A stretch of DNA of 64,000 bases from Lachnospiraceae bacterium (GTDB lineage: Bacteria; Bacillota; Clostridia; Lachnospirales; Lachnospiraceae): the NCBI GenBank assembly GCA_014239155.1, contig JAAZZQ010000013.1, positions 1 to 64,000 on the forward strand, in the 5' to 3' direction. The notes under the pieces are model-generated. The model saw only the letters and a list, made by a program, of their open reading frames with translations. It did not search any database and was not told the DNA's origin. A program made the translations under genes and the position numbers. This document shows positions 4,198-30,671 of this stretch, in pieces (the stretch's first letter is position 1; each line of letters starts with the position of its first letter).

Positions 4198-5829
4198 ATG
4201 ACAGCAAATACAAATAAGCCCAGACAGATAACAGCACTATACGCCCGTCTTTCGCAGGAAGATACGTTAGAGGGCGACAGCAACAGCATTGTGAACCAGA
4301 AAGCAGTCCTTTCCAAATATGCGGCAGATAACGGCTTTTCCAATCCTGTTTTCTTCATTGACGACGGTGTATCGGGAGTAACGTTTGACAGACCAAATTT
4401 TAACCGCATGATTACAGAGATTGAAGCCGGAAACGTGGCAACGGTTATAGTCAAGGATATGTCACGATTAGGGCGTGATTATCTGAAAGTCGGCTACTAT
4501 ACGGAAATCTTTTTCGTGGAGCGTGATGTGCGCTATATCGCAATCAATGACGGTGTAGACAGCGCAAAGGGTGACAATGATTTTACCCCGTTCCGTAACT
4601 TGTTTAACGATTTTTACGCAAAGGACACAAGCAAAAAGGTACGGGCAATCAAACGGGCGCAGGGCATGGCGGGGGAACATCTGACAAAGCCGCCTTATGG
4701 CTACATGGTAAGCCCTACTGACAAGAAACAATGGATTGTGGACGAGGAAGCCGCCGCTGTGGTGAAACGGATTTTTGATTTATGTATTGCCGGGAATGGC
4801 CCTATGCAGATAGCAAAAATCCTCAAAGAAGATAATGTACCTACAGTAAAAGCCTACTATGCAGAAAAAAAGGGGAAAGCCATTCCAGATAATCCGTATA
4901 ATTGGAACGAAAACAGCATTGTCGCTATTTTGGAGCGTATGGACTACTGTGGGCATACAGTGAATTTCAAAAGCTATTCCAAATCCCACAAGCTGAAAAA
5001 ACGGATTCCAACCACAAAAGAACAGCAGGCTATTTTCTTCAATACCCATGAAGCGATTGTAGAGGACGCTGTATTTGAGCGGGTGCAGGAACTTAGGGCA
5101 AACAAACGCCGCTCCACAAAAGCAGAGCGACAGGGCTTGTTCTCCGGCTTGGTGTACTGTGCGGATTGCGGAAGTAAATTACATTTTGCCACTTGCAAAA
5201 GTTTCAACGGTTCACAAGACCATTACCGCTGTTCCAACTATAAAAGCAATACGGGAAGCTGTACGGCTCACTTTATCCGCGAAGAAGTCTTGAAGCGGAT
5301 AGTATGGGGCAGGATATTTGATGTAACTGCACTTTTCTTTGACGACATTATGGCTTTTCGTGAAATGATGTACCGGCAACGCTCCGTTGAAACAGAAAAG
5401 GAAATGAAACGCAAAAAACGTGAAGTCGGACAGGCGCAAAAGCGGATAGTAGAACTTGACCGAATCTTTAAGCGGATTTATGAGGACGACATAAGCGGTG
5501 CAATCAGCCATGACAGATTTTTGAAGCTGTCCGCAGAGTATGAAGCGGAACAGCAGGAACTGGAAAAAAAAGTCAAGTCCGAACAACAGGAAGTCGATAC
5601 TTATGAACAGAACAAAAGCGACTTTGACAGCTTTTCCGCAATTATCTGCAAGTATGTGGGGATAAAGGAACTCACTCCCACAATCGTCAATGAATTTATC
5701 AAGAAAATCATAGTCCATGCGCCGGAAAAAGTGGACGGGAAACGGGTACAGAAAGTAGATATTGTTTTCAACTTTGTTGGGGAAATCAATTTTCTTTCTG
5801 CTACACCGCCGAAACGGCAGGGTGCATGA
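4198..5829 (+). CDS. TnpX-like large serine recombinase (DUF4368)
   Basis: A 543-residue site-specific recombinase. The N-terminal resolvase domain (about 8-150) has the nucleophile Ser in 'ALYARLSQED' and 'VIVKDMSRLGRDYLKVG'. A 'recombinase' domain follows (about 165-290, LTKPPYGYMVSP). Next is a zinc ribbon (CADCGSKLHF ... YRCSNYKSNTGSC), a coiled-coil segment (about 390-480) and a DUF4368-like tail. It should excise and integrate a circular element through staggered cuts at dinucleotide cores. I use the ATG at 4198 (MTANTNK), eight bases after AGGAGG; an upstream TTG at 4165 is less likely. It appears intact, so the element may still move if its ends survive. Confidence 0.92.
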   Translation: MTANTNKPRQITALYARLSQEDTLEGDSNSIVNQKAVLSKYAADNGFSNPVFFIDDGVSGVTFDRPNFNRMITEIEAGNVATVIVKDMSRLGRDYLKVGYYTEIFFVERDVRYIAINDGVDSAKGDNDFTPFRNLFNDFYAKDTSKKVRAIKRAQGMAGEHLTKPPYGYMVSPTDKKQWIVDEEAAAVVKRIFDLCIAGNGPMQIAKILKEDNVPTVKAYYAEKKGKAIPDNPYNWNENSIVAILERMDYCGHTVNFKSYSKSHKLKKRIPTTKEQQAIFFNTHEAIVEDAVFERVQELRANKRRSTKAERQGLFSGLVYCADCGSKLHFATCKSFNGSQDHYRCSNYKSNTGSCTAHFIREEVLKRIVWGRIFDVTALFFDDIMAFREMMYRQRSVETEKEMKRKKREVGQAQKRIVELDRIFKRIYEDDISGAISHDRFLKLSAEYEAEQQELEKKVKSEQQEVDTYEQNKSDFDSFSAIICKYVGIKELTPTIVNEFIKKIIVHAPEKVDGKRVQKVDIVFNFVGEINFLSATPPKRQGA

Positions 5830-5842
5830 GAACAAGAAAAAA

Positions 5843-5873
5843 CGGTACAGCCCTTATAACTGGGGCTATACCG
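5843..5873 (+). terminator. Terminator of the recombinase gene
   Basis: CGGTA-C-AGCCC and GGGCT-A-TACCG form a ten-base-pair stem with one internal mismatch, 14 bases after the recombinase stop codon. There is no long U-run. Confidence 0.62.
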
Positions 5874-6231
5874 CCTAATCTGAAATTACTTCCTTGTCAC
5901 CGCAAACCTTGATATTGTGGGTTTTTTGTCGGTTTTGTCGGCATTGTATTTTTATGTGGTGTGTGCAATGACAGCAAGAGACATCGTTTCGAGCTGTTGT
6001 TCGTCGCATTTTCATTATACTATATCAAAGCCAATTTTACATCACACGATTTACAAAAACTGTAAGAATTTAGACCGCTTATTGCCAATTCACAAAACAA
6101 ACCGACAATTTCTATTTACAAAAATTTTTTAGAATAATAGCAAGCATTGCTTGTAGATGTCCATAGGCAGAATTTTCACAGATCTTTTCCTGTGGAAACT
6201 ATGCAAAAACTGGCTTGCATAAGGGCTATCT
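5874..6231. other. Gene-free end region of the mobile element
   Basis: About 360 bases between the recombinase terminator and the end of the ABC operon. It contains short repeated TTGTCGG motifs (around 5925-5943) and small inverted repeats near 6150 and 6175-6195 (CACAG/CTGTG). It is the likeliest place for the right end of the element. I cannot define an attachment site. Confidence 0.4.
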
Positions 6232-7239
6232 TTAAGAACTCTCTTTGTGCCATTTGGAAATTGACAGATACAGCACAAACCAAACAATACAGTGTGCCAT
6301 AAGAATGAGTATGTCTTTTTTTATCGTTGACGCGGTACTGTTTGCCAAGTTCATAACTCCTTCAAAGGTTGCTGTGGATGGAATAAAATAACAAAGTATT
6401 GAAATAAAACTGTTTGATCCTGACAGATAGGTTAATAATGGAACTGCAATAAATACAATCATGACAATTTTAATATAGACAACACCTACCATAAGACTTT
6501 CAGAAAATCTGCCAATAAATAAACCGATGAATGCAGCTACAAATGCTGACAAGATAATTAATATCAACATGGGAAGTGTATTTTTAGGCGGCAGTCGGAA
6601 ACATATGGAAGCTGTAAAAATAGCAGATAGACATCCACAGATAAAACCAACGAATGCTTTTTGAACAACATATTGACTTTGTGTCATGGGCAATATCTGA
6701 TTGACAAGCTCAACGCCATTTTCCTTTTCAGAGATAATATTTATAGCATTAAAGGTACAACCCATAAACATAGCGACAATTAATGTCATAGCAATAAATA
6801 TGTTTTGAAATCCTGCCATCACATCGGGATGTTCTAAAATTGTGACTTTTATCTGTTTTGCACTTTTCCATTCTTTGTACAATGTGGGGAGTGTATCAGC
6901 AGTTTGACGGAAAATATCCAGTTCATCACCGGAAATCATCGTTTTAATATCATTTCCATCGGCTTCCACACCAATTAAATTTGTAGAAGGTTCATTGATA
7001 GCAGCAATTAATTCTTCCCGCCATTTATATGTGGTTACAGAGCCATATCGCTCTAACCACGAGGTTGTTTGAGTAGACAAATCACCTTCTAATACTCCAA
7101 AATGAAATTCTCCCACTGAAGAAAGATCAATCGTTCCAATAAAATCCAAAGCGAAAGCAACTATGATTGGCAGAAGAAAAGACATGATACAGAATTTGTC
7201 TTTCCATACACTTTTGAGTTGGTAAATCAATCCCCACAT
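6232..7239 (-). CDS. ABC-2 type export permease (second subunit)
   Basis: A 335-residue membrane protein. It has an N-terminal membrane anchor (residues about 17-36), a long extracellular loop (about 40-145), then five or so membrane spans. The 'NIISEKENGVELVNQILPM' element is the cytosolic coupling helix typical of ABC-2 exporters. It starts two bases after the stop codon of the other permease and so belongs to one operon with two permeases and one ATPase. This layout fits a drug, peptide or lantibiotic exporter controlled by the neighbouring two-component system. The substrate cannot be read from the sequence. Confidence 0.8.
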   Translation of the reverse strand: MWGLIYQLKSVWKDKFCIMSFLLPIIVAFALDFIGTIDLSSVGEFHFGVLEGDLSTQTTSWLERYGSVTTYKWREELIAAINEPSTNLIGVEADGNDIKTMISGDELDIFRQTADTLPTLYKEWKSAKQIKVTILEHPDVMAGFQNIFIAMTLIVAMFMGCTFNAINIISEKENGVELVNQILPMTQSQYVVQKAFVGFICGCLSAIFTASICFRLPPKNTLPMLILIILSAFVAAFIGLFIGRFSESLMVGVVYIKIVMIVFIAVPLLTYLSGSNSFISILCYFIPSTATFEGVMNLANSTASTIKKDILILMAHCIVWFVLYLSISKWHKESS

Positions 7240-7241
7240 AA

Positions 7242-8318
7242 TTAGTCTTCCTTTCCCATTTCTTTATGAAATATAATTTCAACAATCATGAATAAAACAG
7301 CAATTCCACAAACGGAGAAAACATAGTAAATCGGATTGGTGGTAGATATTCCAAAATAGGCATTTTTTAACCCCATATAAACCTGATAAAATGGATTCCA
7401 ATCAATCCATGCTATTTTTATAGAGGTATTTGCTGACAAAAATACGGGTGTAGTTACAAAAATAGCAATTATCAAATAGGCAAGGGAAAACTGTTTAAAA
7501 TCATTTAACAACATGGTGCACCCAAATCCCATCAATGCCATAATAAGTGACAGAATTGTGGTTTGCACTAATATAGCAGGCAAAATGTAGATTGTATCGG
7601 GAAATCCTACATTGAATACTGTCATCAATGTTGCAAAAATCAAATCTGATAATAGGAAAACAACTATTTTCGACAGGATAAATAAACTTCTTTTAAAGGG
7701 CAGGACTGCATGAACACGGATAACTCCCATCTGCTTTTCTTTAAACAATACTGAAGCAACCCCCAAAAAACCAACAGCAACAATTTCAATAAACAAAAGT
7801 TCGCAGGATATTTCTTTTCGTTGTTTTAGTTCCATCGTATTTGTACCTACCGTTTTGGCAGTGTATCTAATATCGGAGTGGAGAAGTGATAAAGCATAAT
7901 CTGCTCGGTGATTATCAGCTTTTTCACTTCCAAAATATAAAATGATATTAGGAGTGCCGGAACTGGCATCTATACCTACACCACTTGTGTCAGTGGCAAG
8001 AATGTTATTTAATTCTTCTAATGAATCAACGGAGTAAAGCAATTCAGATGATTCCGTCTGTGTATCTTGCGGATCATACAGATACACATTATATAGTTTG
8101 TCATTCATAAAGTTGATATAACCAAAGTTAATAAACATCGTATAAAGAAGTAGTGAACCGAAAGCAACAAGAAAAAATTTTCCGGCTATCATCACTTGAC
8201 AATCTTTTTTTAATAATGAGCAAAAGTTTTTCCAGCTCGACTGCGTTTCACTGGTATTTCTCGTCAAACAGCGATTCATGCAAGCGTAATTGTTGCTTTC
8301 CTCGTTATTTTTCCACAT
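7242..8318 (-). CDS. ABC-2 type export permease (first subunit)
   Basis: A 358-residue membrane protein built like its neighbour. It has one N-terminal span (about 45-68), an extracellular loop of about 100 residues, and five to six spans with 'VLFKEKQMGVIRVHAVLPF' as the coupling-helix motif. It overlaps the ATPase gene by one base. Together with the second permease it should form a heterodimeric channel. Residues 1-30 are polar with several Asn and Cys, so a later start (Met14 or nearby) is possible. The function is export; the substrate is unknown. Confidence 0.8.
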   Translation of the reverse strand: MWKNNEESNNYACMNRCLTRNTSETQSSWKNFCSLLKKDCQVMIAGKFFLVAFGSLLLYTMFINFGYINFMNDKLYNVYLYDPQDTQTESSELLYSVDSLEELNNILATDTSGVGIDASSGTPNIILYFGSEKADNHRADYALSLLHSDIRYTAKTVGTNTMELKQRKEISCELLFIEIVAVGFLGVASVLFKEKQMGVIRVHAVLPFKRSLFILSKIVVFLLSDLIFATLMTVFNVGFPDTIYILPAILVQTTILSLIMALMGFGCTMLLNDFKQFSLAYLIIAIFVTTPVFLSANTSIKIAWIDWNPFYQVYMGLKNAYFGISTTNPIYYVFSVCGIAVLFMIVEIIFHKEMGKED

Positions 8319-12877: not shown

Positions 12878-13714
12878 ATGAGTACCATTTCTGCGGGTAC
12901 GCCCGTCATTGCAGAGGGTATTTCTGCGTATTACAACACATCAAAAACCAGTAAGAAAACAGAGGAGAAAAAGGAAGATATCGCTATCACTAAGAAGGAG
13001 GAAGCTGCGGAGACAGTCAAAAAGAAAAAAGCTAATGGCAGAACCATTGGAAATCCAGAACTGACAGAAAAAGCTGCAAAGTATTATGAGGAACTAAAAA
13101 AGAAGTATGGTAATTTGGATTTTATCCTTGTGAGCAAAGACCAGAAAGAATTTGCAAAAGCGACTGCGTCAAAATACTCTAATCCACATAAAATGGTTGT
13201 GCTTATTGACGAGGAAAAAATTGAACGTATGGCGGAGGACGAAGATTTTCGTAAACAGTATGAAGGTATCATTGCAAAGGGTGCAAGTGGCTTGACACAG
13301 TTAAAAAATAAACTTGCCAATATGGGATTGGGTGTGAAAAGCTGCGGCATGAATGTGTATGACAATGGAGCGACATCGTTTTTTGCGACGATGGATAAAT
13401 CGTTTAAAGCGCAGAATAAGACTGCCCAACAGCGTTTGGCAAAAAAGAAAGCTGCCAAAAAAGCGGAGGAGAAGAAAGCTGCAAAGAAGGCAGAGCAGAA
13501 AAAACAACAAGAGAAATTAGAAACAAATAGGGAAGAACGCAGAGTGATTCGGGAGGAATATTTTGAGAGTGACAATGAGGATGAAATCACATTTACTGCG
13601 GACTCTATTGAGGACTTGATTGATCAGATTGAAGGTGCAGATTATCTTCTTGAAAGAAACAATTCATCAAATTATGGAAGGCAAGTAGGGCGAGGGTTTG
13701 ATTCCACAATTTAA
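12878..13714 (+). CDS. DUF6033-like protein
   Basis: A 278-residue protein. The Ser/Thr-rich N-terminus is followed by a conserved domain (about 50-185) with 'YYEELKKKYGNLDFILVS', 'NPHKMVVLIDEEKIERM' and 'GASGLTQLKNKLANMG'. A lysine/alanine-rich helix follows (about 188-220), then an acidic tail. This layout matches DUF6033 proteins of Lachnospiraceae, whose role is not known. The start is clear (AAGGAGGGATGAACT before the ATG). It is the last gene before a strong terminator. Confidence 0.7.
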   Translation: MSTISAGTPVIAEGISAYYNTSKTSKKTEEKKEDIAITKKEEAAETVKKKKANGRTIGNPELTEKAAKYYEELKKKYGNLDFILVSKDQKEFAKATASKYSNPHKMVVLIDEEKIERMAEDEDFRKQYEGIIAKGASGLTQLKNKLANMGLGVKSCGMNVYDNGATSFFATMDKSFKAQNKTAQQRLAKKKAAKKAEEKKAAKKAEQKKQQEKLETNREERRVIREEYFESDNEDEITFTADSIEDLIDQIEGADYLLERNNSSNYGRQVGRGFDSTI

Positions 13715-13755
13715 CAGTTATAAAAAGTGACAGGAGTATAAAATTATGATATATT

Positions 13756-13800
13756 GTATGTAACCATCTAGAATGAAAATTCGGGTGGTTACATACATTT
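13756..13800 (+). terminator. Terminator of the DUF6033 operon
   Basis: GTATGTAACCA (13756-13766) and TGGTTACATAC (13786-13796) are perfectly complementary and are followed by ATTTTTAT. This separates the DUF6033 set from the flotillin gene. Confidence 0.82.
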
Positions 13801-13826
13801 TTATATAATTCAAAGGAGGACAAAAA

Positions 13827-15362
13827 ATGACAGGAGCTATTATTGCAGTAATTGTGGTCATTGTTTTAATTGTGCTATTGTGTATGGGATATGTGAAAGC
13901 GCCGCCTGATATGGCGTTTATTATCTCAGGTATCAAGAAAAAGTCCAAGGTGGTAATTGGAAAGGCAAGTATTAGAATACCTTTTTTTGAGCGTCTTGAC
14001 AAGCTGAATCTTAGATTGATTCCTATTGATGTCAAGACAAGTAATGCAGTGCCAACTGCAGACTATATCAATATTAATGTGGATGCAACAGTCAACGTGA
14101 AGATTAGCAATCAGCCAGATAAGTTAAGATTGGCGGCTGAAAATTTTTTAAATAAAAATACGGAATACATAGCGGGTGTCGCGCGTGAGGTTCTTGAGGG
14201 TAATGTGCGTGAGATTGTAGGGCGTATGCGTCTTGAGGAGATGGTTTCCGATAGACAGAAGTTTGCAGAACTTGTGAAAGAGAACGCGGAGCCAGATTTG
14301 GCAGCAATGGGACTGGATATAATTAGTTTTAATGTGCAGAACTTTGTTGATGGAAATGATGTGATTGAGAATCTTGGTATAGACAATATTGTGAAGATTA
14401 AGAAAGCGGCAGCGATTGCAAGAGCTGAGAGTGAACGTGATATTAAGGTTGCACAGGCAGCAGCAGATAAGGATTCCAATGATGCAGCAGTGGCGGCGCA
14501 GACTGAGATTGCAAAGAAACAAAATGAGCTTGCTATTAAAAAGTCCGAGCTTCAGATGGAGGCGGATACCAAGAAGGCAATGGCAGATGCTGCTTATGAA
14601 ATTCAAAAAGAAGAGCAACGTAAGACGATTGAAATTACAACAGCAAATGCAGACATTGCAAAACAGGAGCGTGAGATAGAGTTAAAACAGAAGGAAGTTG
14701 CAGTAAAGGAGCGTGCGCTTGAGGCGGAGGTAAAGAAACAGGCGGAGGCAGAGAAGTATGCAGCGCAGCAAAAGGCGGATGCAGCGTTGTATCAACGACA
14801 GAAGGAAGCGGAAGCGCAGCAGTTTGAGGCACAGAGGATTGCGGAGGCAAAAAAAGCACAGGCGGAGGCAGACCGTTACTCAAAAGAGCAGGAAGCACAA
14901 GGTATTCGGGCATTTGGTGAGGCAGAGGCAGCAGCGGTGCGGGCAAAAGGTGTTGCGGAGGCAGAGGCAATACAGGCGAAGGGAATTGCAGAGGCGGAAG
15001 CTATGGAGAAAAAGGCGGAGGCATATGCAAAATATAATAAAGCAGCAGTAGCTGAGATGATGATTAAGGTGTTGCCTGACATTGCGGGAAAAATTGCAGA
15101 ACCACTGTCTCAAATTGACAAGATTACAATTATTGGCGGTGATGGCGCCAACGGAGTAGATCAAGTAGCGAACAACGTTCCAGCGGTTATGACAAAGTTG
15201 TTTGAGTCCATGAAGGAGACAACAGGAATTGATTTGGCAAATATTATTAATGCGGAATCTTATGATGCCAGAGTGAACAGAAATATTACTGTAAATGGGC
15301 TGGAAGGCGTCAATCTAACTGTTCATCAGAAACCGGAGGATTTAGGAACAGATAATAAGTAA
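13827..15362 (+). CDS. Flotillin-family (SPFH) membrane-domain scaffold
   Basis: A 511-residue protein. One N-terminal membrane span (about 3-22) is followed by the SPFH/band-7 domain (about 30-200: 'VIGKASIRIPFFERLDKLNL', 'EGNVREIVGRMRLEEM'). Next is a long heptad coiled coil made of repeated E/A/K/Q blocks (about 200-410), with the EA repeats typical of flotillins, and a C-terminal oligomerization tail. Flotillins organise functional membrane microdomains and act as scaffolds in sporulation, secretion and signalling. Length and domain order match FloT of Bacillus. The gene is preceded by CAAAGGAGGACAA and stands between two terminators, so it is probably monocistronic. Confidence 0.92.
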   Translation: MTGAIIAVIVVIVLIVLLCMGYVKAPPDMAFIISGIKKKSKVVIGKASIRIPFFERLDKLNLRLIPIDVKTSNAVPTADYININVDATVNVKISNQPDKLRLAAENFLNKNTEYIAGVAREVLEGNVREIVGRMRLEEMVSDRQKFAELVKENAEPDLAAMGLDIISFNVQNFVDGNDVIENLGIDNIVKIKKAAAIARAESERDIKVAQAAADKDSNDAAVAAQTEIAKKQNELAIKKSELQMEADTKKAMADAAYEIQKEEQRKTIEITTANADIAKQEREIELKQKEVAVKERALEAEVKKQAEAEKYAAQQKADAALYQRQKEAEAQQFEAQRIAEAKKAQAEADRYSKEQEAQGIRAFGEAEAAAVRAKGVAEAEAIQAKGIAEAEAMEKKAEAYAKYNKAAVAEMMIKVLPDIAGKIAEPLSQIDKITIIGGDGANGVDQVANNVPAVMTKLFESMKETTGIDLANIINAESYDARVNRNITVNGLEGVNLTVHQKPEDLGTDNK

Positions 15363-15639
15363 TTTATGGTTTATTGTTTATACAGAACTTAATATTTACT
15401 GCTAAGTCTATAAGAAAAGGTGCATGGATTTTTACCTGTTATTGGAACGGAGTGAACAGTGACATTTATAGCAGTGAGTTGTTAGGCACAAACATGGTTA
15501 AATATTCAGAATATTATATGCAATTTGCAAAATTTATCCATAATTTAATGTTAATATTTCTATTGTGATTACCGATATATATTACGTAAACAGTAATGGA
15601 TTTTAACTTATAATATTTTAGAAAGGATATGGATATACA
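15363..15639. other. AT-rich intergenic region
   Basis: About 280 bases with no supported gene. It ends in GAAAGGATATGG, the ribosome binding site of the next gene. Confidence 0.5.
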
Positions 15640-16398
15640 ATGAATATAAACAGTTCGAGAAATTCCCTATTAAGAGCGAGAAATTTAAGGAGTGCTAGAA
15701 GAAGCCGCGCAGGGAAGGTGATTAGCAGCAAGACTTCTAGGACAAACAGCAAATCAAACTCCACTAAAAGAACAACTTCGCCGCTGGCGTCTAAAACACC
15801 AACAAAACAGCTTGCAATGTATGAGCAGATGGAAAAGTCTGCGAGCAGTGTACAGGACAGTGTTGAGAAGATGTTAAAAATTGGCAAAACAACATACACT
15901 GACGATGAGACAGGCAAGAAGGCACAGGAGAATGACAAAGAGAATTTGATAAAGAATATCAAAGATTTTGTAACAGAGTTTAATGAAGTTTACAATAATC
16001 TGTACGATATTGGTGGTGCGGCAAATCTTGCTTTTAAAAAGACACTAGATAGTGTTGTCTCAACCAACAAAAAAGCGTTGGAAGGGATCGGTATTACAGT
16101 TTCTAAATCGGGAGAACTTTCGATTGATGAAAAGACTTTGGAAGGTACAGATTTTGAGAAAATAAAGGAAGTGTTTGCAAAAGAGGGCGGTTTTTCAGAT
16201 AAGGTTTGTGGAAAGATGGAGACAATTGAGAACGCTGCGTCAAATAGTCTTACAACCTTCAGTAAACTTTATGGAGCAACTTCTACCTACAACAAGTATG
16301 GAACGAGCAATTCGTACTTTAATGGTTATAGCAGCAGTGGTTACTACAATAACTATAATTATGGGAAGTATGGCAGCAATAGTGGTTGGTATTTCTAA
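15640..16398 (+). CDS. FliD-like C-terminal domain protein with Tyr/Gly/Asn tail
   Basis: A 252-residue protein in three parts. Residues 1-55 are Arg/Lys/Ser/Thr-rich. Residues about 60-205 resemble the C-terminal helical part of flagellar hook-associated protein 2 ('VTEFNEVYNNLY' and 'IGITVSKSGELSIDEKTLEG'). The last 40 residues are a low-complexity tail of Tyr, Gly, Ser and Asn. There is no secretion signal or the N-terminal half of FliD, so it cannot be a normal cap protein. It may be a secreted or spore/filament-associated protein. Confidence in the FliD resemblance is moderate. Confidence 0.65.
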   Translation: MNINSSRNSLLRARNLRSARRSRAGKVISSKTSRTNSKSNSTKRTTSPLASKTPTKQLAMYEQMEKSASSVQDSVEKMLKIGKTTYTDDETGKKAQENDKENLIKNIKDFVTEFNEVYNNLYDIGGAANLAFKKTLDSVVSTNKKALEGIGITVSKSGELSIDEKTLEGTDFEKIKEVFAKEGGFSDKVCGKMETIENAASNSLTTFSKLYGATSTYNKYGTSNSYFNGYSSSGYYNNYNYGKYGSNSGWYF

Positions 16399-26098: not shown

Positions 26099-26149
26099 AT
26101 CTTTTCAATTCCTGTGATTTATCTTAGATTTCAATAATCTGCGAAAAAT
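26099..26149. repeat. 51-bp perfect inverted repeat, left arm
   Basis: This arm, starting ATCTTTTCAATTCCTGTG and ending CTGCGAAAAAT, is the exact reverse complement of 26489-26539. The arms enclose 339 bases. Confidence 0.96.
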
Positions 26150-26188
26150 GGCTTCAAAGCCTTATGTTATGGAATATTCTTAACTCTA

Positions 26189-26287
26189 TTGACTCAGAAT
26201 TTGACCCAGAAATACAATTGGAAACATATTTGTAAGTAGATCTAGAGTCCAATTTTAACCTTTTGATTTTGACCCAGAATTTGACCC
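26189..26287. repeat. Four TTGACYC heptamers in two pairs
   Basis: TTGACTC-agaat-TTGACCC at 26189-26207 and TTGACCC-agaat-TTGACCC at 26269-26287. Within each pair the heptamers start 12 bases apart and the two pairs start 80 bases apart. They probably bind a protein; which one is unknown. Confidence 0.75.
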
Positions 26288-26398
26288 TAAATCTTTCCAA
26301 TTAGTTAAAAATTATAAAATTTTATGGCAATATAAAATAGTTTCCATATTTTTCTGTCAATTATAATGTTATTTTTCAAAAGAATTGTCAAAAAAGAA

Positions 26399-26427
26399 TT
26401 GTCAAGTTGACTAAAACGTGATAAACT
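26399..26427 (+). promoter_or_regulatory. Promoter inside the inverted-repeat segment
   Basis: TTGTCA (26399-26404), 17 bases, TAAACT (26422-26427). Five of six and four of six matches. In the present orientation it points at the TnpB-like gene. AAGAATTGTCAA occurs twice (26380, 26394), the second copy overlapping the -35 box. Confidence 0.5.
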
Positions 26428-26455
26428 GATGTCATTATCAAATTATGTAGAAGAA

Positions 26456-26494
26456 AATGAGAACATTTTGATTTAAAATGCTCATTTTATTTTT
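26456..26494 (+). terminator. Attenuator-like hairpin between promoter and TnpB-like gene
   Basis: AATGAG-aa-CATTTT, loop GATTT, AAAATG-CTCATT, then TTTTATTTTT. A transcript from the promoter at 26399 would meet this about 25 bases after its start, before the gene. Confidence 0.65.
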
Positions 26495-26539
26495 CGCAGA
26501 TTATTGAAATCTAAGATAAATCACAGGAATTGAAAAGAT
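26489..26539. repeat. 51-bp perfect inverted repeat, right arm (carries the RBS)
   Basis: Exact reverse complement of 26099-26149. It includes the CACAGGAA ribosome binding site and ends at the first two bases of the start codon of the TnpB-like gene. Inversion of the segment would therefore leave the translation start unchanged. Confidence 0.96.
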
Positions 26540-27884
26540 GAATAAGACATCTAAAAACAACACACTAACGAAAACAATTTGCCAATATAGTGAACCACTT
26601 CCAAAGGATACAATGGAATTTCTTAAAGGAATTGCCATAGATTATTGTAAAGTGAAGAATTATACTTATAAGCGATTTTCTGGAATAAAAAGTTTAAATA
26701 GACTGACCCCTGTTTATAGTATCCTAAATGAAATGCGATATTGTGGATTAAGAGAACAGTTGAATCTTCCTGTAGTATATTATGAGCTTGCAATAGCAGA
26801 TGCCGTTACAGACATTAAAGCTAGATGGGGAACGGTAAAAAATAAAGTAGGGGAACTTATTACTGCAAATGAAAATTTAAGTAATGATGACAGAATATAT
26901 CTCAGAACAGTACTAAAGATGAATAGTGTGTATACAGCTATTTTGAATCATCAGGAATATGAGATACCGAAAAATGCAGTAAATCTAAATATCGATGTAA
27001 AGCATCTCAATCAAGTCCTTTGCAGATATACAAGAAAATATTTAACTCCTTTAAAAACGGATAATATAGACTCCTTTAAAATATCTCCCAACGGCTATTC
27101 CTATAAAGAAGGTTCGATCTATATTGTATGTAGAGTTCCTAGAAAGAGAATTTGCCTTCCGTTAAGGGATAATAGAATTTTTCATCGGCAGATACAAATA
27201 CATATAAGAGAAAACTATGCAGTGTTAACAGTGCCCGTAGAGACAAAAGTGAGGAAACATAATGATTATATAAATATGATTTGTGTGTACATAGGTTATA
27301 AAGATTTGTTTACACTGTCAAGTGGAAAAATTTATGGAGAAGGATTAGGTGAGATATTAGATCCAGAGACAGAAAGACTTATGAAGAAAAATTCGGAGCG
27401 ACAGAAAATACAATTAATATATCAACAACTTATGGAAAACGGTAATTTATTAAAAGCAGATCAGGTGCATCTCAATAATCTTGGGAAATATAAATATGAC
27501 AAACAGAAAGAAAGAGAAAGATCGAAAACAATAACATTTATTAACTCCGAGATTAACAGGATGTTAAAGGAGGAAAAACCGCAGAAAGTTATTATAACTA
27601 AACCAGTTACAAAAAACAAAACTATGCAATATTCAAAAATGGAAAACAGAAAATTAACAAGAAATTTTCGCAGTTATATTCGAGAGCGTTTGGCATATAA
27701 ATGTCAGCTAAATTCTATTGAGTTAATAGAGATTAATTCAAAGGGAACTGGAAAGATATGTTCATCTTGTGGTGTCGAAGGCAAGAGAGAAGGAATGGAA
27801 TTTATCTGTGAAAATTGTGGTATGAGGATAAGTATTCCATTGAATTCTGCAAAAAATATAGAAAACAAGTATAATAAAGGTTAA
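26538..27884 (+). CDS. TnpB-family protein with a lost RuvC active site (TldR-like)
   Basis: A 448-residue protein of the IS605 OrfB/TnpB family. The C-terminal third follows the family layout: 'YKDLFTLSSGKIYGEGL' (RuvC-I), 'TFINSEINRMLKEEKPQKVI' and the helix 'RKLTRNFRSYIRERLAYKC' (RuvC-II), then a zinc ribbon with Cys408, Cys411, Cys424 and Cys427, and 'NSAKNI' (RuvC-III). The three catalytic acids expected in family members (GIDxG, IxEDL, ADxNA) align with Tyr251, Thr354 and Pro434, so DNA cleavage is very unlikely. Nuclease-dead TnpBs (TldRs) are known as RNA-guided repressors. No TnpA is nearby. It stands alone ahead of a glycan locus, behind the inverted-repeat segment. TnpB ancestry is sure; a TldR role is inference. 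Confidence 0.85.
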   Translation: MNKTSKNNTLTKTICQYSEPLPKDTMEFLKGIAIDYCKVKNYTYKRFSGIKSLNRLTPVYSILNEMRYCGLREQLNLPVVYYELAIADAVTDIKARWGTVKNKVGELITANENLSNDDRIYLRTVLKMNSVYTAILNHQEYEIPKNAVNLNIDVKHLNQVLCRYTRKYLTPLKTDNIDSFKISPNGYSYKEGSIYIVCRVPRKRICLPLRDNRIFHRQIQIHIRENYAVLTVPVETKVRKHNDYINMICVYIGYKDLFTLSSGKIYGEGLGEILDPETERLMKKNSERQKIQLIYQQLMENGNLLKADQVHLNNLGKYKYDKQKERERSKTITFINSEINRMLKEEKPQKVIITKPVTKNKTMQYSKMENRKLTRNFRSYIRERLAYKCQLNSIELIEINSKGTGKICSSCGVEGKREGMEFICENCGMRISIPLNSAKNIENKYNKG

Positions 27885-28070
27885 CAGTATAGAACTGAGA
27901 ATAAATAACCTATTGGTTATTTCACCGCTAGGCGGATCACAGGAAAATACATTGACATAGAAAAGCAAAAAGTCGGCATTAGCTAAACTGTGTTAGCAGT
28001 TTTCGGGTATGCCAGGACCGTGGCTTACACGGAGCGAAGTATATTCTAAAATAGGATATACAAACAAAAT
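27885..28070 (+). ncRNA. Candidate omega-RNA-like structured RNA
   Basis: Directly behind the TnpB-like stop are five stems in about 160 bases. They are AAATAACC/GGTTATTT (27903-27922), CCGC/GCGG (27925-27935), GGCAT/ATGCC (27975-28013) enclosing GCTAA/TTAGC (27982-27997), CCGTG-gctta-CACGG (28018-28032) and TATATTCTA/TAGGATATA (28040-28060). TnpB omega-RNAs lie in just this place, with the guide beyond the scaffold end. The end point and any guide cannot be fixed by eye. Confidence 0.6.
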
Positions 28071-28115
28071 ATGTTCCGATAATCCTTATGATAATAATTT
28101 AAGTTGGGGGAGAAC

Positions 28116-30671
28116 ATGACAAAGACACAAAAAAAGCAGGCACAAGAATATGTTAGTCAGCTTGAACAGATACATAATCAGATAAAAGAATGCGTTGTTC
28201 AAAACAATATTTCGTTGGCAATGGAGCTGTTGGTCAATTGTCAAAGTAAGGCAATCTTACTTGGCACATTTATTGAACAAACAGAGGGAGAAAATACTTG
28301 TGTGGTATCAAAGTTAGAAGAATACTGTGAAATAATATATAATTTTTATGAAAATTTGGAAAAAAATAAAGAGATAAATGCCAATAAAATATATAAAATT
28401 TTGAGACAGAAATTGATAAAAATAGCAAATAGTATTAAAAATGATATAAAAGTAAAGATAGAAGCAGTTTTTCTACCATACAAGGCAAGTATGTGGGATA
28501 GCTTAGAAACCGTATGGAAAGCTGCAGATAACGATCCAGATTGTGATGCGTATGTTATACCAATTCCATATTATGATAAAAACCTAGATGGAAGTTTTCG
28601 AGAAATGCATTATGAGGCAGAGCAATATCCAGAAGATGTTCCAATTATAAAGTATGATGCATTTGATTTTGCGAAGCATATGCCTGATATGATATTTATT
28701 CATTATCCTTATGATGGTGCGAATATTGTTACGAGCGTTCATCCTTTTTTTTATTCGGACAATTTAAAGAAGTTTACAAATTGTTTAGTTTATATACCTT
28801 ACTATGCAACATCAGGCGGTATGAGTGAGGGACAAGGATTATGCCCTGCATATTTGAATGCAGATTATATTGTAATCCAATCTGAAAAATACCGAAAATT
28901 TTATGACAGTAGAATACCTGATGGCAAGTTTCTTGCGCTAGGGTCGCCTAAGTTTGACAAAGTGATTGATAAATGTCTCAATCCACCAACAATACCAAGA
29001 GAGTGGAGCAAGAAGTTTAAAGGAAAGAAGATATATTTCTATAATACAAGTATTGGTGGAATGCTTGAAAATACAGATGCGTTTATAAAAAAGATTCAAT
29101 ATGTTTTTGGCATATTTAAGGGAAGAACGGATGTGTGTTTATTGTGGCGTCCTCACCCGCTCATGGAATCTACGTTAGATTCTATGAGAAAAGAGTACAA
29201 GTCCCAGTATCTTATGTTAAAGAAAAAATTTGTCGAAGAAGATATTGGAATTCTTGATGAAAGCGCGGATATTGAGAATACGATAGCATTGTGTGATGCA
29301 TATATCGGTGATTCTGCAACCAGTGTAACATCACTTTTTGGAGTTGCCGGAAAGCCAATATTCATATTGAATAACTACATTAATACTTTACCAGATAAGG
29401 ACGATTGGCGTGGAGAAATAATGAATTCAATATGGCTTGACATGCGGGGAAATGATCACTATTGGGTTACATCAAATAATCAATTATGGTTTTCTGAAAG
29501 AAACGATTATCATTATAAGTTTTTTATGGATTTGCAGACGGGATATTCTGGCGGTAGATACTATATGAAAGCAGTAAAAATAAAAAATAAGATTTATGTG
29601 TTACCACAGAATGCTAGGAACCTTTTGATTATTGAAGACAAGAAATTACGAAGTATTGACTTAAAAGTGGACAATTTTAGCGCAGGAGCATTTTGGAGTT
29701 ATTTTTATAATGAGGAATATATTTTTTTATTACCGTTAAGGTGTTCATACCTTGTCAGATTTCATATACGAACGGAGGAGATTGTTTATATAGACGGAGT
29801 AAGACAGTTTAATGTGCGAAACGTAAATGGTCAGTGGTCTATAGGAGGAGTGGCTCCTTACGGAAATGAACTTGTATTTGCATCACCTGTCGATAATCAT
29901 TTTCTGTTTGTAGAAATGGATACATTAAAGATAAGAATATTAAGTAATAATTCAAAAAGTAATATCGGAACTCTTTTTATTGTTTTTGATGACGATGAAT
30001 TATGGTTATTGCCAACAAGGGGATTGACAATTACACGTTGGAATCCAAAGACGGGGGAGATGGCAGAGTATAGTGATGTGCCTAGGGATTTTAAGTCGAT
30101 TAAATGGCCATATGGTATTGAGTGTGATGAAAAACCGTTTTACAACCTTGCAATCTCTAGGAAAAATGGAAAAGAAACAATTATTATAGCGCCATATTGG
30201 GGGAATATGTATCTATCACTTGATAGAATGACAGGAAAAATGGAGAGATGGGAGCCGCCATTTTTTAGTGTTAATCGCAGCAAAGATGCATATTTTCAAT
30301 CTGCAAGTATGGGATGTTTTTTAAATACATATTTACCACAGGGAGAATCAGAACACTATATATGGTATGAACCCGAAAGAAAGCTTTATTGTGTTAATAT
30401 TGATACAAAAGAATATAAAGAAATTGAAATTAAATTTAACGAGAAGGAACTAATGAGTCATGAGCTGGGATTTGCAAAAGAATCGGAATGGATGCAATAC
30501 TGCTTAAAAGAAAACGCATTTCAGTCAATTGTGGGCTTTATTGATAATAAAATTATTGGAAATTCGTTTGACAGAGAAAAACAACTTGAAGCATTTTCTA
30601 AAATAAATGCAAATAGAGATGGAACTTGTGGCGAAAGTATTTATAACTTGGTGAAAGGGAAAATTTCATGA
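28116..30671 (+). CDS. CDP-glycerol glycerophosphotransferase-like protein with propeller-like C-terminus
   Basis: An 851-residue, two-part protein. After a helical N-terminus (about 1-110), residues about 115-430 resemble the TagB/TagF transferase core ('VFLPYKASMWDSLETVWKAA', 'YPYDGANIVTSVHPFFYS', 'LLWRPHPLMEST', 'YIGDSATSVTSLFGVAGKP'). Such enzymes move glycerol-phosphate from CDP-glycerol onto a glycan at the membrane. Residues about 480-780 are repeated beta-rich segments of propeller type. I start at the ATG at 28116, behind GGGGGAG; a TTG four codons earlier is possible. It opens the glycan locus. Its stop overlaps the next start (ATGA), and that gene makes a CDP-activated alditol. Confidence 0.83.
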   Translation: MTKTQKKQAQEYVSQLEQIHNQIKECVVQNNISLAMELLVNCQSKAILLGTFIEQTEGENTCVVSKLEEYCEIIYNFYENLEKNKEINANKIYKILRQKLIKIANSIKNDIKVKIEAVFLPYKASMWDSLETVWKAADNDPDCDAYVIPIPYYDKNLDGSFREMHYEAEQYPEDVPIIKYDAFDFAKHMPDMIFIHYPYDGANIVTSVHPFFYSDNLKKFTNCLVYIPYYATSGGMSEGQGLCPAYLNADYIVIQSEKYRKFYDSRIPDGKFLALGSPKFDKVIDKCLNPPTIPREWSKKFKGKKIYFYNTSIGGMLENTDAFIKKIQYVFGIFKGRTDVCLLWRPHPLMESTLDSMRKEYKSQYLMLKKKFVEEDIGILDESADIENTIALCDAYIGDSATSVTSLFGVAGKPIFILNNYINTLPDKDDWRGEIMNSIWLDMRGNDHYWVTSNNQLWFSERNDYHYKFFMDLQTGYSGGRYYMKAVKIKNKIYVLPQNARNLLIIEDKKLRSIDLKVDNFSAGAFWSYFYNEEYIFLLPLRCSYLVRFHIRTEEIVYIDGVRQFNVRNVNGQWSIGGVAPYGNELVFASPVDNHFLFVEMDTLKIRILSNNSKSNIGTLFIVFDDDELWLLPTRGLTITRWNPKTGEMAEYSDVPRDFKSIKWPYGIECDEKPFYNLAISRKNGKETIIIAPYWGNMYLSLDRMTGKMERWEPPFFSVNRSKDAYFQSASMGCFLNTYLPQGESEHYIWYEPERKLYCVNIDTKEYKEIEIKFNEKELMSHELGFAKESEWMQYCLKENAFQSIVGFIDNKIIGNSFDREKQLEAFSKINANRDGTCGESIYNLVKGKIS

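Follow-up and report, generated by a model that had tools for sequence, protein, structure and literature searches.

The closest described counterparts of the system considered here are nuclease-dead TnpB proteins, known as TldRs, for which the published account gives a seed of 6 nucleotides (nt) (PMC13418256). The csrA-TldRs of Oscillibacter and Flavonifractor have targets inside fliC genes, predicted cross-targeting, and hin together with promoter inversions upstream, and the TldRs of prophages repress the flagellin of the host at its promoter (PMC13418256). In the present work, we have analysed 64,000 nt of DNA from a Lachnospiraceae bacterium (contig JAAZZQ010000013.1; hereafter the window), in which a gene for a TnpB-like protein lacking all three RuvC catalytic acids precedes a glycan locus. 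Sequence comparisons suggest, with a probability that we place at about 0.72, that this gene encodes a TldR-like RNA-guided repressor by which one surface-glycan locus excludes another, and which is switched by promoter inversion.

The logic proposed for this system is the same as that of the published TldRs, and its cargo and parts are different (PMC13418256). With the csrA-TldRs it shares a host-encoded dead TnpB with a guide RNA, targets inside reading frames, predicted cross-targeting and an upstream promoter inversion, of which the guide RNA, the targets and the inversion are predictions here; however, the csrA-TldRs have flagellin targets and csrA and a hin invertase as neighbours, whereas here the predicted target is a glycan head gene, the associated genes form a glycan operon, and recombinases of the family PF00589 lie beside relatives. 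Neither csrA nor hin was noticed by eye among the open reading frames (ORFs) of at least 60 amino acids (aa) at 24.5–30 kilobases (kb), where no profile search was aimed at them. In the Enterobacter prophage fliC-TldR the regulator likewise travels with a replacement gene and the resident version is repressed, as is predicted here, but that system is phage-borne and targets the host fliC promoter, whereas the present one is chromosomal, its predicted target lies within a gene and a whole operon is at stake (PMC13418256). Capsule, polysaccharide and glycan are not mentioned in this source, and a literature search, with most subscription papers beyond reach, turned up no dead TnpB in a glycan locus.

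The TnpB-like protein and its relatives

Membership of the protein in the TnpB family is indicated by its match to the Pfam family Cas12f1-like_TNB (E 1e-12); its match to NCBIfam guided_TnpB has an E value of 1e-13, yet it scores 51 bits where the cut-off is 100. The gene and the locus behind it are arranged as follows.

26538–27884, + strand: nuclease-dead TnpB-like gene (TldR-like), 448 aa, with Tyr251, Thr354 and Pro434 at the catalytic positions
28116–30671, + strand: head gene of the glycan locus, 851 aa, in an ORF from 28104 with a TTG start; unmatched in Pfam and NCBIfam, and without significant similarity to any PDB sequence (best E 0.19)
30668–59805, + strand: rest of the glycan locus (cytidylyltransferases, LicD, GDPD and many glycosyltransferases)

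The first-pass annotation of the window had described a TnpB-family protein with all three RuvC acids replaced, and this description is borne out by alignment with five triad-bearing relatives, which fixes the D, E and D columns at Tyr251, Thr354 and Pro434. In all, 106 relatives were aligned, drawn from the genus and the family of this bacterium and from named GTDB genomes. A scan of genome contigs gave 236 relatives, mostly from Lachnospiraceae, with some from Selenomonadaceae and others, and the best 80 of these 236 were retrieved; the 110 distinct loci exclude four pieces shorter than 900 nt, and the tree also drops one row of less than 380 aa. Among the 106 rows, the Tyr251 column contains H (42), Y (25), S (22), A (9), D (5) and P, C and F (1 each), the Thr354 column T (60), P (18), A (16), V (6), E (5) and G (1), and the Pro434 column A (48), K (25), S (14), P (6), D (5), R (5), G (2) and Y (1). 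The D, E and D are thus absent from 101 of the 106 relatives and occur together in the same five rows, viz. Clostridium rectalis, Haloimpatiens lingqiaonensis and three copies from Oceanirhabdus seepicola (L150, L154–L157). These five rows form one fully supported clade at the end of a long branch in the tree of 105 rows, with which a single loss of the triad is compatible.

The zinc-ribbon cysteines (408, 411, 424 and 427), reported earlier as kept, are invariant in all 106 rows, the gene is long and intact as had been stated, with zero internal stops, and a search for an intact D-E-D triad elsewhere in the protein found none. The dead proteins of nearly all relatives keep open frames at 30–69% identity, which indicates selection on the gene. 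A one-off decayed transposon gene is ruled out by the occurrence of the loss in 101 of 106 relatives with frames open in nearly all of them, in line with the earlier view of a domesticated protein, and an active TnpB transposon does not fit the window protein, in which the triad is not intact. By eye, none of the seven ORFs of at least 60 aa that overlap 24.5–30 kb is TnpA-like, as the first-pass annotation had also found.

The glycan locus, in which the large ORFs are all on the + strand, spans 28104–59805 and starts just after the TnpB-like gene, which does stand at the head of a locus of about 32 kb. A homologue of the head gene follows 74 of the 101 dead loci; none is present in the available DNA of 23, the DNA is too short in 4, and none of the five triad-bearing loci has one. 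Of the two expectations raised for homologues, conservation of the loss held, and adjacency to a glycan head gene held for these 74 dead loci. The dead TnpB is, on these counts, tied to non-transposon genes, which is one of the properties by which a TldR is recognized, and the tests made support a nuclease-dead, TldR-like protein heading a glycan locus, with RNA binding and repression as predictions. Three head genes are present in this genome: on contig C27 (the window), on C41 beside a second dead TnpB, and on C14 with no dead TnpB upstream. The last, an orphan head gene, is followed by genes for a glycosyltransferase, an oxidoreductase, a DegT aminotransferase and a hexapeptide transferase. 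Loci of this kind also occur in cultured commensals, among them Lachnospiraceae bacterium A4, 3-2 and COE1.

The structured RNA and its predicted guide and target

The stop codon of the TnpB-like gene is followed at once by a conserved element (27895–28095 in the window). Its predicted parts, and the site in the adjoining head gene that corresponds to the target, are listed below.

27895–28078, + strand: conserved structured RNA, the predicted guide-RNA scaffold, with hairpin, pseudoknot, covariation and a covariance model
27975–27979 with 28009–28013, + strand: hairpin of the scaffold
28003–28007 with 28075–28079, + strand: pseudoknot of the scaffold, the last base of which doubles as guide nt 1
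28079–28095, + strand: predicted guide ATAATCCTTATGATAAT, the tail after the pseudoknot
28702–28717, + strand: site in the head gene itself that corresponds to the target (HYPYDG), with 3 mismatches to the guide and the flank ATTC, not ATAC

RNAalifold predicts 43 pairs from 17 sequences, 26 of which have at least one two-sided compensatory change. The pseudoknot joins the strand before the ATGCC of the main hairpin to the strand just before the tail, and is formed by TCGGG/TCCGA in the window and by TCCGG/CCGGC, GCTTG/CAAGC and TCGCG/CGCGA in other loci. For the hairpins and pseudoknot together, 96.7% of cells are paired, 13 of 21 pairs show two-sided change, and the covariation is 0.474 versus 0.208 in shuffles, with every slid control far lower; the pseudoknot helix by itself has 92.6% of cells paired and two-sided changes in 3 of its 5 pairs. 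A covariance model (R1) built from 19 sequences gives 79 matches in 77 of 100 sources at E ≤0.1, training sequences included, and the window core (27964–28095), which is part of the training set, scores 133 bits. At this threshold, the five triad-bearing loci and 18 other sources are unmatched, and in the non-triad sources that were missed the element is often visible by eye. By its sequence and covariation, this element is predicted to encode a guide RNA beside the dead TnpB gene, which is a further property of TldRs. No Rfam family matched the window stretch (only match E 3.5), and a small conserved ORF across the RNA tail was rejected by eye, as the frames break in several loci.

The triad-keeping TnpBs of C. 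rectalis, H. lingqiaonensis and O. seepicola are the nearest D-E-D relatives found and appear by eye to have the same pseudoknot beside the guide position, in that CTGG and a terminal CCAG at the right end of the element could form it, in which case the guide would come right after. They differ in that the Oceanirhabdus copies are repeated elements (91–93% identical over 2–2.4 kb, with the right end in common), no head gene follows and R1 does not match; since R1 misses these loci, descent of the scaffold from the RNA of an active TnpB rests on position and on the look of the pseudoknot. Rfam at gathering score gave no match in L150, L154, L155 or L157. The repeated TnpB elements of L154 and L155 (about 5200–7622), which are conserved over about 400 nt on the left side, are presumably IStron-like, without an Rfam match at gathering score. 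Two further arrangements of the RNA were also observed: a second copy with a slightly different guide about 1.5 kb downstream of the first, behind a 334-aa ORF (L063:12737–12878, − strand), and a composite locus (L035:1673–2780) with a truncated head gene, a clade 3-like RNA without its tnpB, and a second head gene.

The guide-like tail of about 17 nt after the pseudoknot reads as the codons (G)AT AAT CCN TAT GAT AAT. Such tails match the codons for I-H-N-P/A-Y-D-N, which in the first gene of glycan loci come after about 195 codons, and the closest match is usually that in an orphan locus; this was first suggested by a site with one mismatch at C14:50530, on a different contig of this genome, in an ORF reading IYIHNPYDN. 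A search for head genes in 33 further genomes gave matches in 31, and of 82 places in total (3 in this genome and 79 in others) 65 yielded a target site by motif pattern, viz. 30 orphan sites and 35 behind a dead TnpB; the orphan status of L214, L215, L224, L249 and L261 is tentative, as at most 1534 nt of upstream DNA was available. The other 17 places were missed by the pattern or have incomplete DNA. Several of the 14 loci inspected among them read HNGYD, HSPYD or YTHNPYD, and their own sites have 4 (G012:C1), 6 (G017:C3), 5 (G029:C12), 4 (G032:C36) and 2 (G037:C8, flank TACTC) mismatches.

In comparisons over 16 nt, clade 1 guides have on average 3.85 mismatches to their own site (n = 26), 3.77 to other dead-TnpB loci (n = 26) and 2.24 to orphans (n = 38). 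Of the 26 guides for which both kinds of site were available, 23 matched their best orphan more closely than the own site, 3 matched both equally well and none matched the own site more closely (Wilcoxon p 2e-5, uncorrected for relatedness; two of the genomes have two orphans to choose from). The flank ATAC, a candidate for the TAM beside which the guide of a TldR has its chromosomal target, precedes 23 of 30 orphan sites versus 14 of 35 other sites (Fisher p 0.005). Guide nt 2–7 match perfectly next to ATAC in 21 of the 38 comparisons with orphans, in none of the 26 with own sites and in 3 of the 26 with other dead-TnpB loci. Guide and target also change jointly: in seven genomes (G007, G013, G015, G018, G033, G034 and G035) the orphan reads HNAYD and the guides have G at nt 6, and over all orphan comparisons a C at this position meets C in 20 of 20 cases, G meets G in 10 and C in 4, and T or A meets C in 4. 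When guides were swapped among genomes, the mean best mismatch rose from 1.47 to 1.89, and none of 5000 permutations was as low as the observed value.

When whole genomes were searched, a head gene was the closest match, copies of the guide apart, in G009 (C79 with 0 of 18 mismatches, C12 with 1), G032 (0 of 17) and G023 (1 of 17), and in G020 an approximate pattern, not exactly either guide, matches the head gene on C3 with 0 of 17 mismatches. As the perfect site in G009 (C79) lies behind a clade 2 dead TnpB, the targets are not orphans only. A target in the upstream or invertible segment was rejected, with no guide match there at up to 3 mismatches, and an early idea that ATAATCCTTATGATAA is a promoter -10 element was dropped after the single-mismatch sites of the genome were listed. 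Separately, ATAAGCCCTATGATAAT, two mismatches from the guide, occurs 12 times among the matches listed for G023 and is probably a repeat or mobile element, and a DUF5696 gene of this genome (G000:C8:156426; L284:9427) partly matches, with mismatches and possibly by chance, the clade 3 guide of C41 by codon sense (VPYLS/VPFLS).

The similarity between guide and target is of guide length. Among 34 clade 1 guides (36 less L215 and L237, which are orphan sites caught by the guide pattern), the information content drops sharply between nt 18 (1.03 bit) and nt 19 (0.31 bit), so that only a guide-length piece is common to both. At nt 21–22 the targets have an invariant AA (2.0 bits, from the next AAY codon), whereas the guides have about 0.5 bit, with A in 22 and 20 of 34; at nt 23 A is again found in 20 of 34 guides, while targets carry T or C, and the A at guide nt 21–22 therefore looks like base composition. 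Of the H, N, Y and D codons within the footprint, 2 of 119 end in C in orphans and 40 of 140 do so beside dead TnpBs (p 3e-10); over the remainder of the 80 codons on either side, the shares are 24.1% and 27.7% (p 0.045). Column by column, the target H, N, Y and D codons of orphans are among the five lowest of 38 such columns, and the last N codon of the footprint has the value 0.11. The footprint is thus nearly frozen at synonymous positions in orphans and at background in own sites, which indicates that the orphan site is held and the own site merely unconstrained.

These observations bear on three other explanations. An unlikely one is that the dead TnpB binds its leader RNA in cis as an antiterminator or stabiliser of its own glycan operon, with no DNA target; the RNA does share its strand with the TnpB-like gene that precedes it and the head gene that follows, and the head-gene match begins 235–570 nt past the tnpB stop in 64 of 74 loci, but the match of a tail of about 17 nt to codons of another gene, the joint change of guide and target across many genomes and the frozen synonymous sites in orphan codons are left unexplained. 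We consider it less probable still that the ribonucleoprotein (RNP) activates or protects the rival head gene, or acts on mRNA instead of DNA: sequence alone gives no direction of effect, but the guide carries coding-strand sequence and would pair with the template DNA strand, not with mRNA, and the described TldRs are repressors (PMC13418256). That the tail is a functionless leftover of the head gene, from an old insertion or gene conversion, with a protein that does something else or nothing, is favoured by the likeness of the tail to the codons GAT AAT CCN TAT GAT AAT, but it is very improbable, since the similarity stops at guide length, before the AAY codon invariant in targets, the upstream frames are by eye not open across the family, and the open frames of the dead proteins indicate selection. 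The genome-swap permutations and the column-wise codon test point away from a guide-to-orphan match no better than that of an arbitrary conserved run of codons in the gene.

The upstream inverted repeat and putative switch

A perfect inverted repeat lies immediately upstream of the TnpB-like gene.

26099–26149, no strand assigned: left arm of the 51-nt inverted repeat (100% complementary), a probable recombination site
26150–26488, no strand assigned: segment of 339 nt between the arms, probably invertible, with promoter-like matches on both strands
26489–26539, no strand assigned: right arm, reaching into the start codon of the TnpB-like gene

The promoter-like consensus matches between the arms (26399–26427 on the + strand and 26391–26363 on the − strand) are weak, with 21 in the region versus 15 ± 4 in shuffles, and a genome search for a 23-nt core of the arm, with up to 3 mismatches allowed, gave no further copy. 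An inverted repeat with a score of at least 17 is present in 28 of 88 loci with at least 480 nt upstream versus 0 of 60 shuffles, and the arms are often dyads themselves, e.g. TTTCGCAGA..TCTGCGAAA. Eighteen of the 106 contigs end within 480 nt upstream of the TnpB-like gene, as would happen where assemblies meet two orientations. Two ORFs adjoining L148 and L149 are tyrosine recombinases (PF00589), and in 37 of 110 regions, which represent 36 loci because L146 counts twice, tblastn located a gene resembling these at most 3 kb upstream, pointing toward tnpB in 27 and away from it in 10. In 25 of these 37 regions an inverted repeat scoring at least 17 lies upstream, and in 22, by our own reading, it lies around the recombinase. 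On these grounds, the segment in the window is a candidate promoter inverton.

In another locus (L160:5141–7323), the 5' end of one dead tnpB occurs three times beside a 93-nt inverted repeat, once in the full gene, once as a short forward copy and once in inverted orientation, an arrangement that looks like a recombined switch region. Further upstream of the glycan locus in the window (12878–16395) are DUF6033 and flotillin-like ORFs and one weakly resembling the FliD C-terminus, and the glycan might decorate flagella.

Proposed mechanism and its significance

In the mechanism that we propose, a tyrosine recombinase would flip the short promoter segment between the upstream inverted repeats, as the repeats and the recombinase genes beside relatives suggest, and in the ON state a single transcript would, from the gene order, comprise the dead TnpB, the guide RNA and the glycan operon. 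The protein would bind the RNA scaffold just 3' of its own gene, for which conservation and covariation argue, and the guide of about 17 nt, whose match was computed, would pair with the IHN(P/A)YDN codons beside the ATAC flank in the head gene of another locus, usually one without a dead TnpB. The bound complex would then block RNA polymerase in the rival head gene and turn the rival operon off, and the own head gene would escape through mismatches or a missing ATAC flank. With somewhat less confidence, though we still favour it, we suggest that allelic exclusion among the surface-glycan loci of gut Firmicutes is brought about by a large family of RNA-guided repressors derived from TnpB, in which the RNP of each flippable locus silences the resident locus inside its first gene, and the synonymous codons of that gene are selected to stay targetable.

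A number of observations weigh against this proposal. The predicted target in this genome has 1 mismatch, and three further single-mismatch sites exist, none of them after ATAC. More generally, 17 of 38 orphan comparisons fail the test of nt 2–7 with ATAC, guides with G at nt 6 in G002, G005 and G022 face orphans with C, and the best orphan match has 3 mismatches for G002:C4, G005:C352, G005:C384, both guides of G007, G013:C25, G018:C324, G022:C35 and G029:C12 and 4 for G017:C3 and G037:C46. Some own sites are close to the guide (1 mismatch with ATAC in G023:C1; 2 in G033:C21, G037:C72, G020:C13 and G029:C11), and since codon use at own sites is at background level, active self-avoidance by the own head gene is unsupported. 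For the guides of the two deeper clades, 2 and 3, which include that of the second dead TnpB of this genome (C41), comparison with head genes and then with four and two whole genomes, respectively, at 2 mismatches gave no convincing target. A Pfam scan of about 40 window ORFs, which left aside those at 1–11.7 kb, turned up no recombinase, and one would thus have to act from elsewhere. Lastly, head genes of one genus are not independent, and the within-gene control answers shared ancestry only in part.

The invertible-promoter capsule loci of Bacteroides are phase-variable, carry their own regulator at each head and exclude one another, and their UpxY and UpxZ are protein regulators of transcription. 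The present loci would likewise be phase-variable glycan loci headed by their own regulator, which here is an RNA-guided TnpB relative and not a protein of the UpxY/UpxZ kind. Beyond the first-pass annotation, the present work adds the predicted guide RNA, its predicted target and the putative inverton. If the proposal is correct, RNA-guided transcription factors would extend from flagellin to the surface glycans of common gut bacteria, and a concrete mechanism for the exclusion of glycan loci in Lachnospiraceae would be at hand. A coding sequence would then be kept legible for an endogenous RNA guide, and the synonymous constraint at the target would provide an evolutionary signature of such guides that can be searched for elsewhere.
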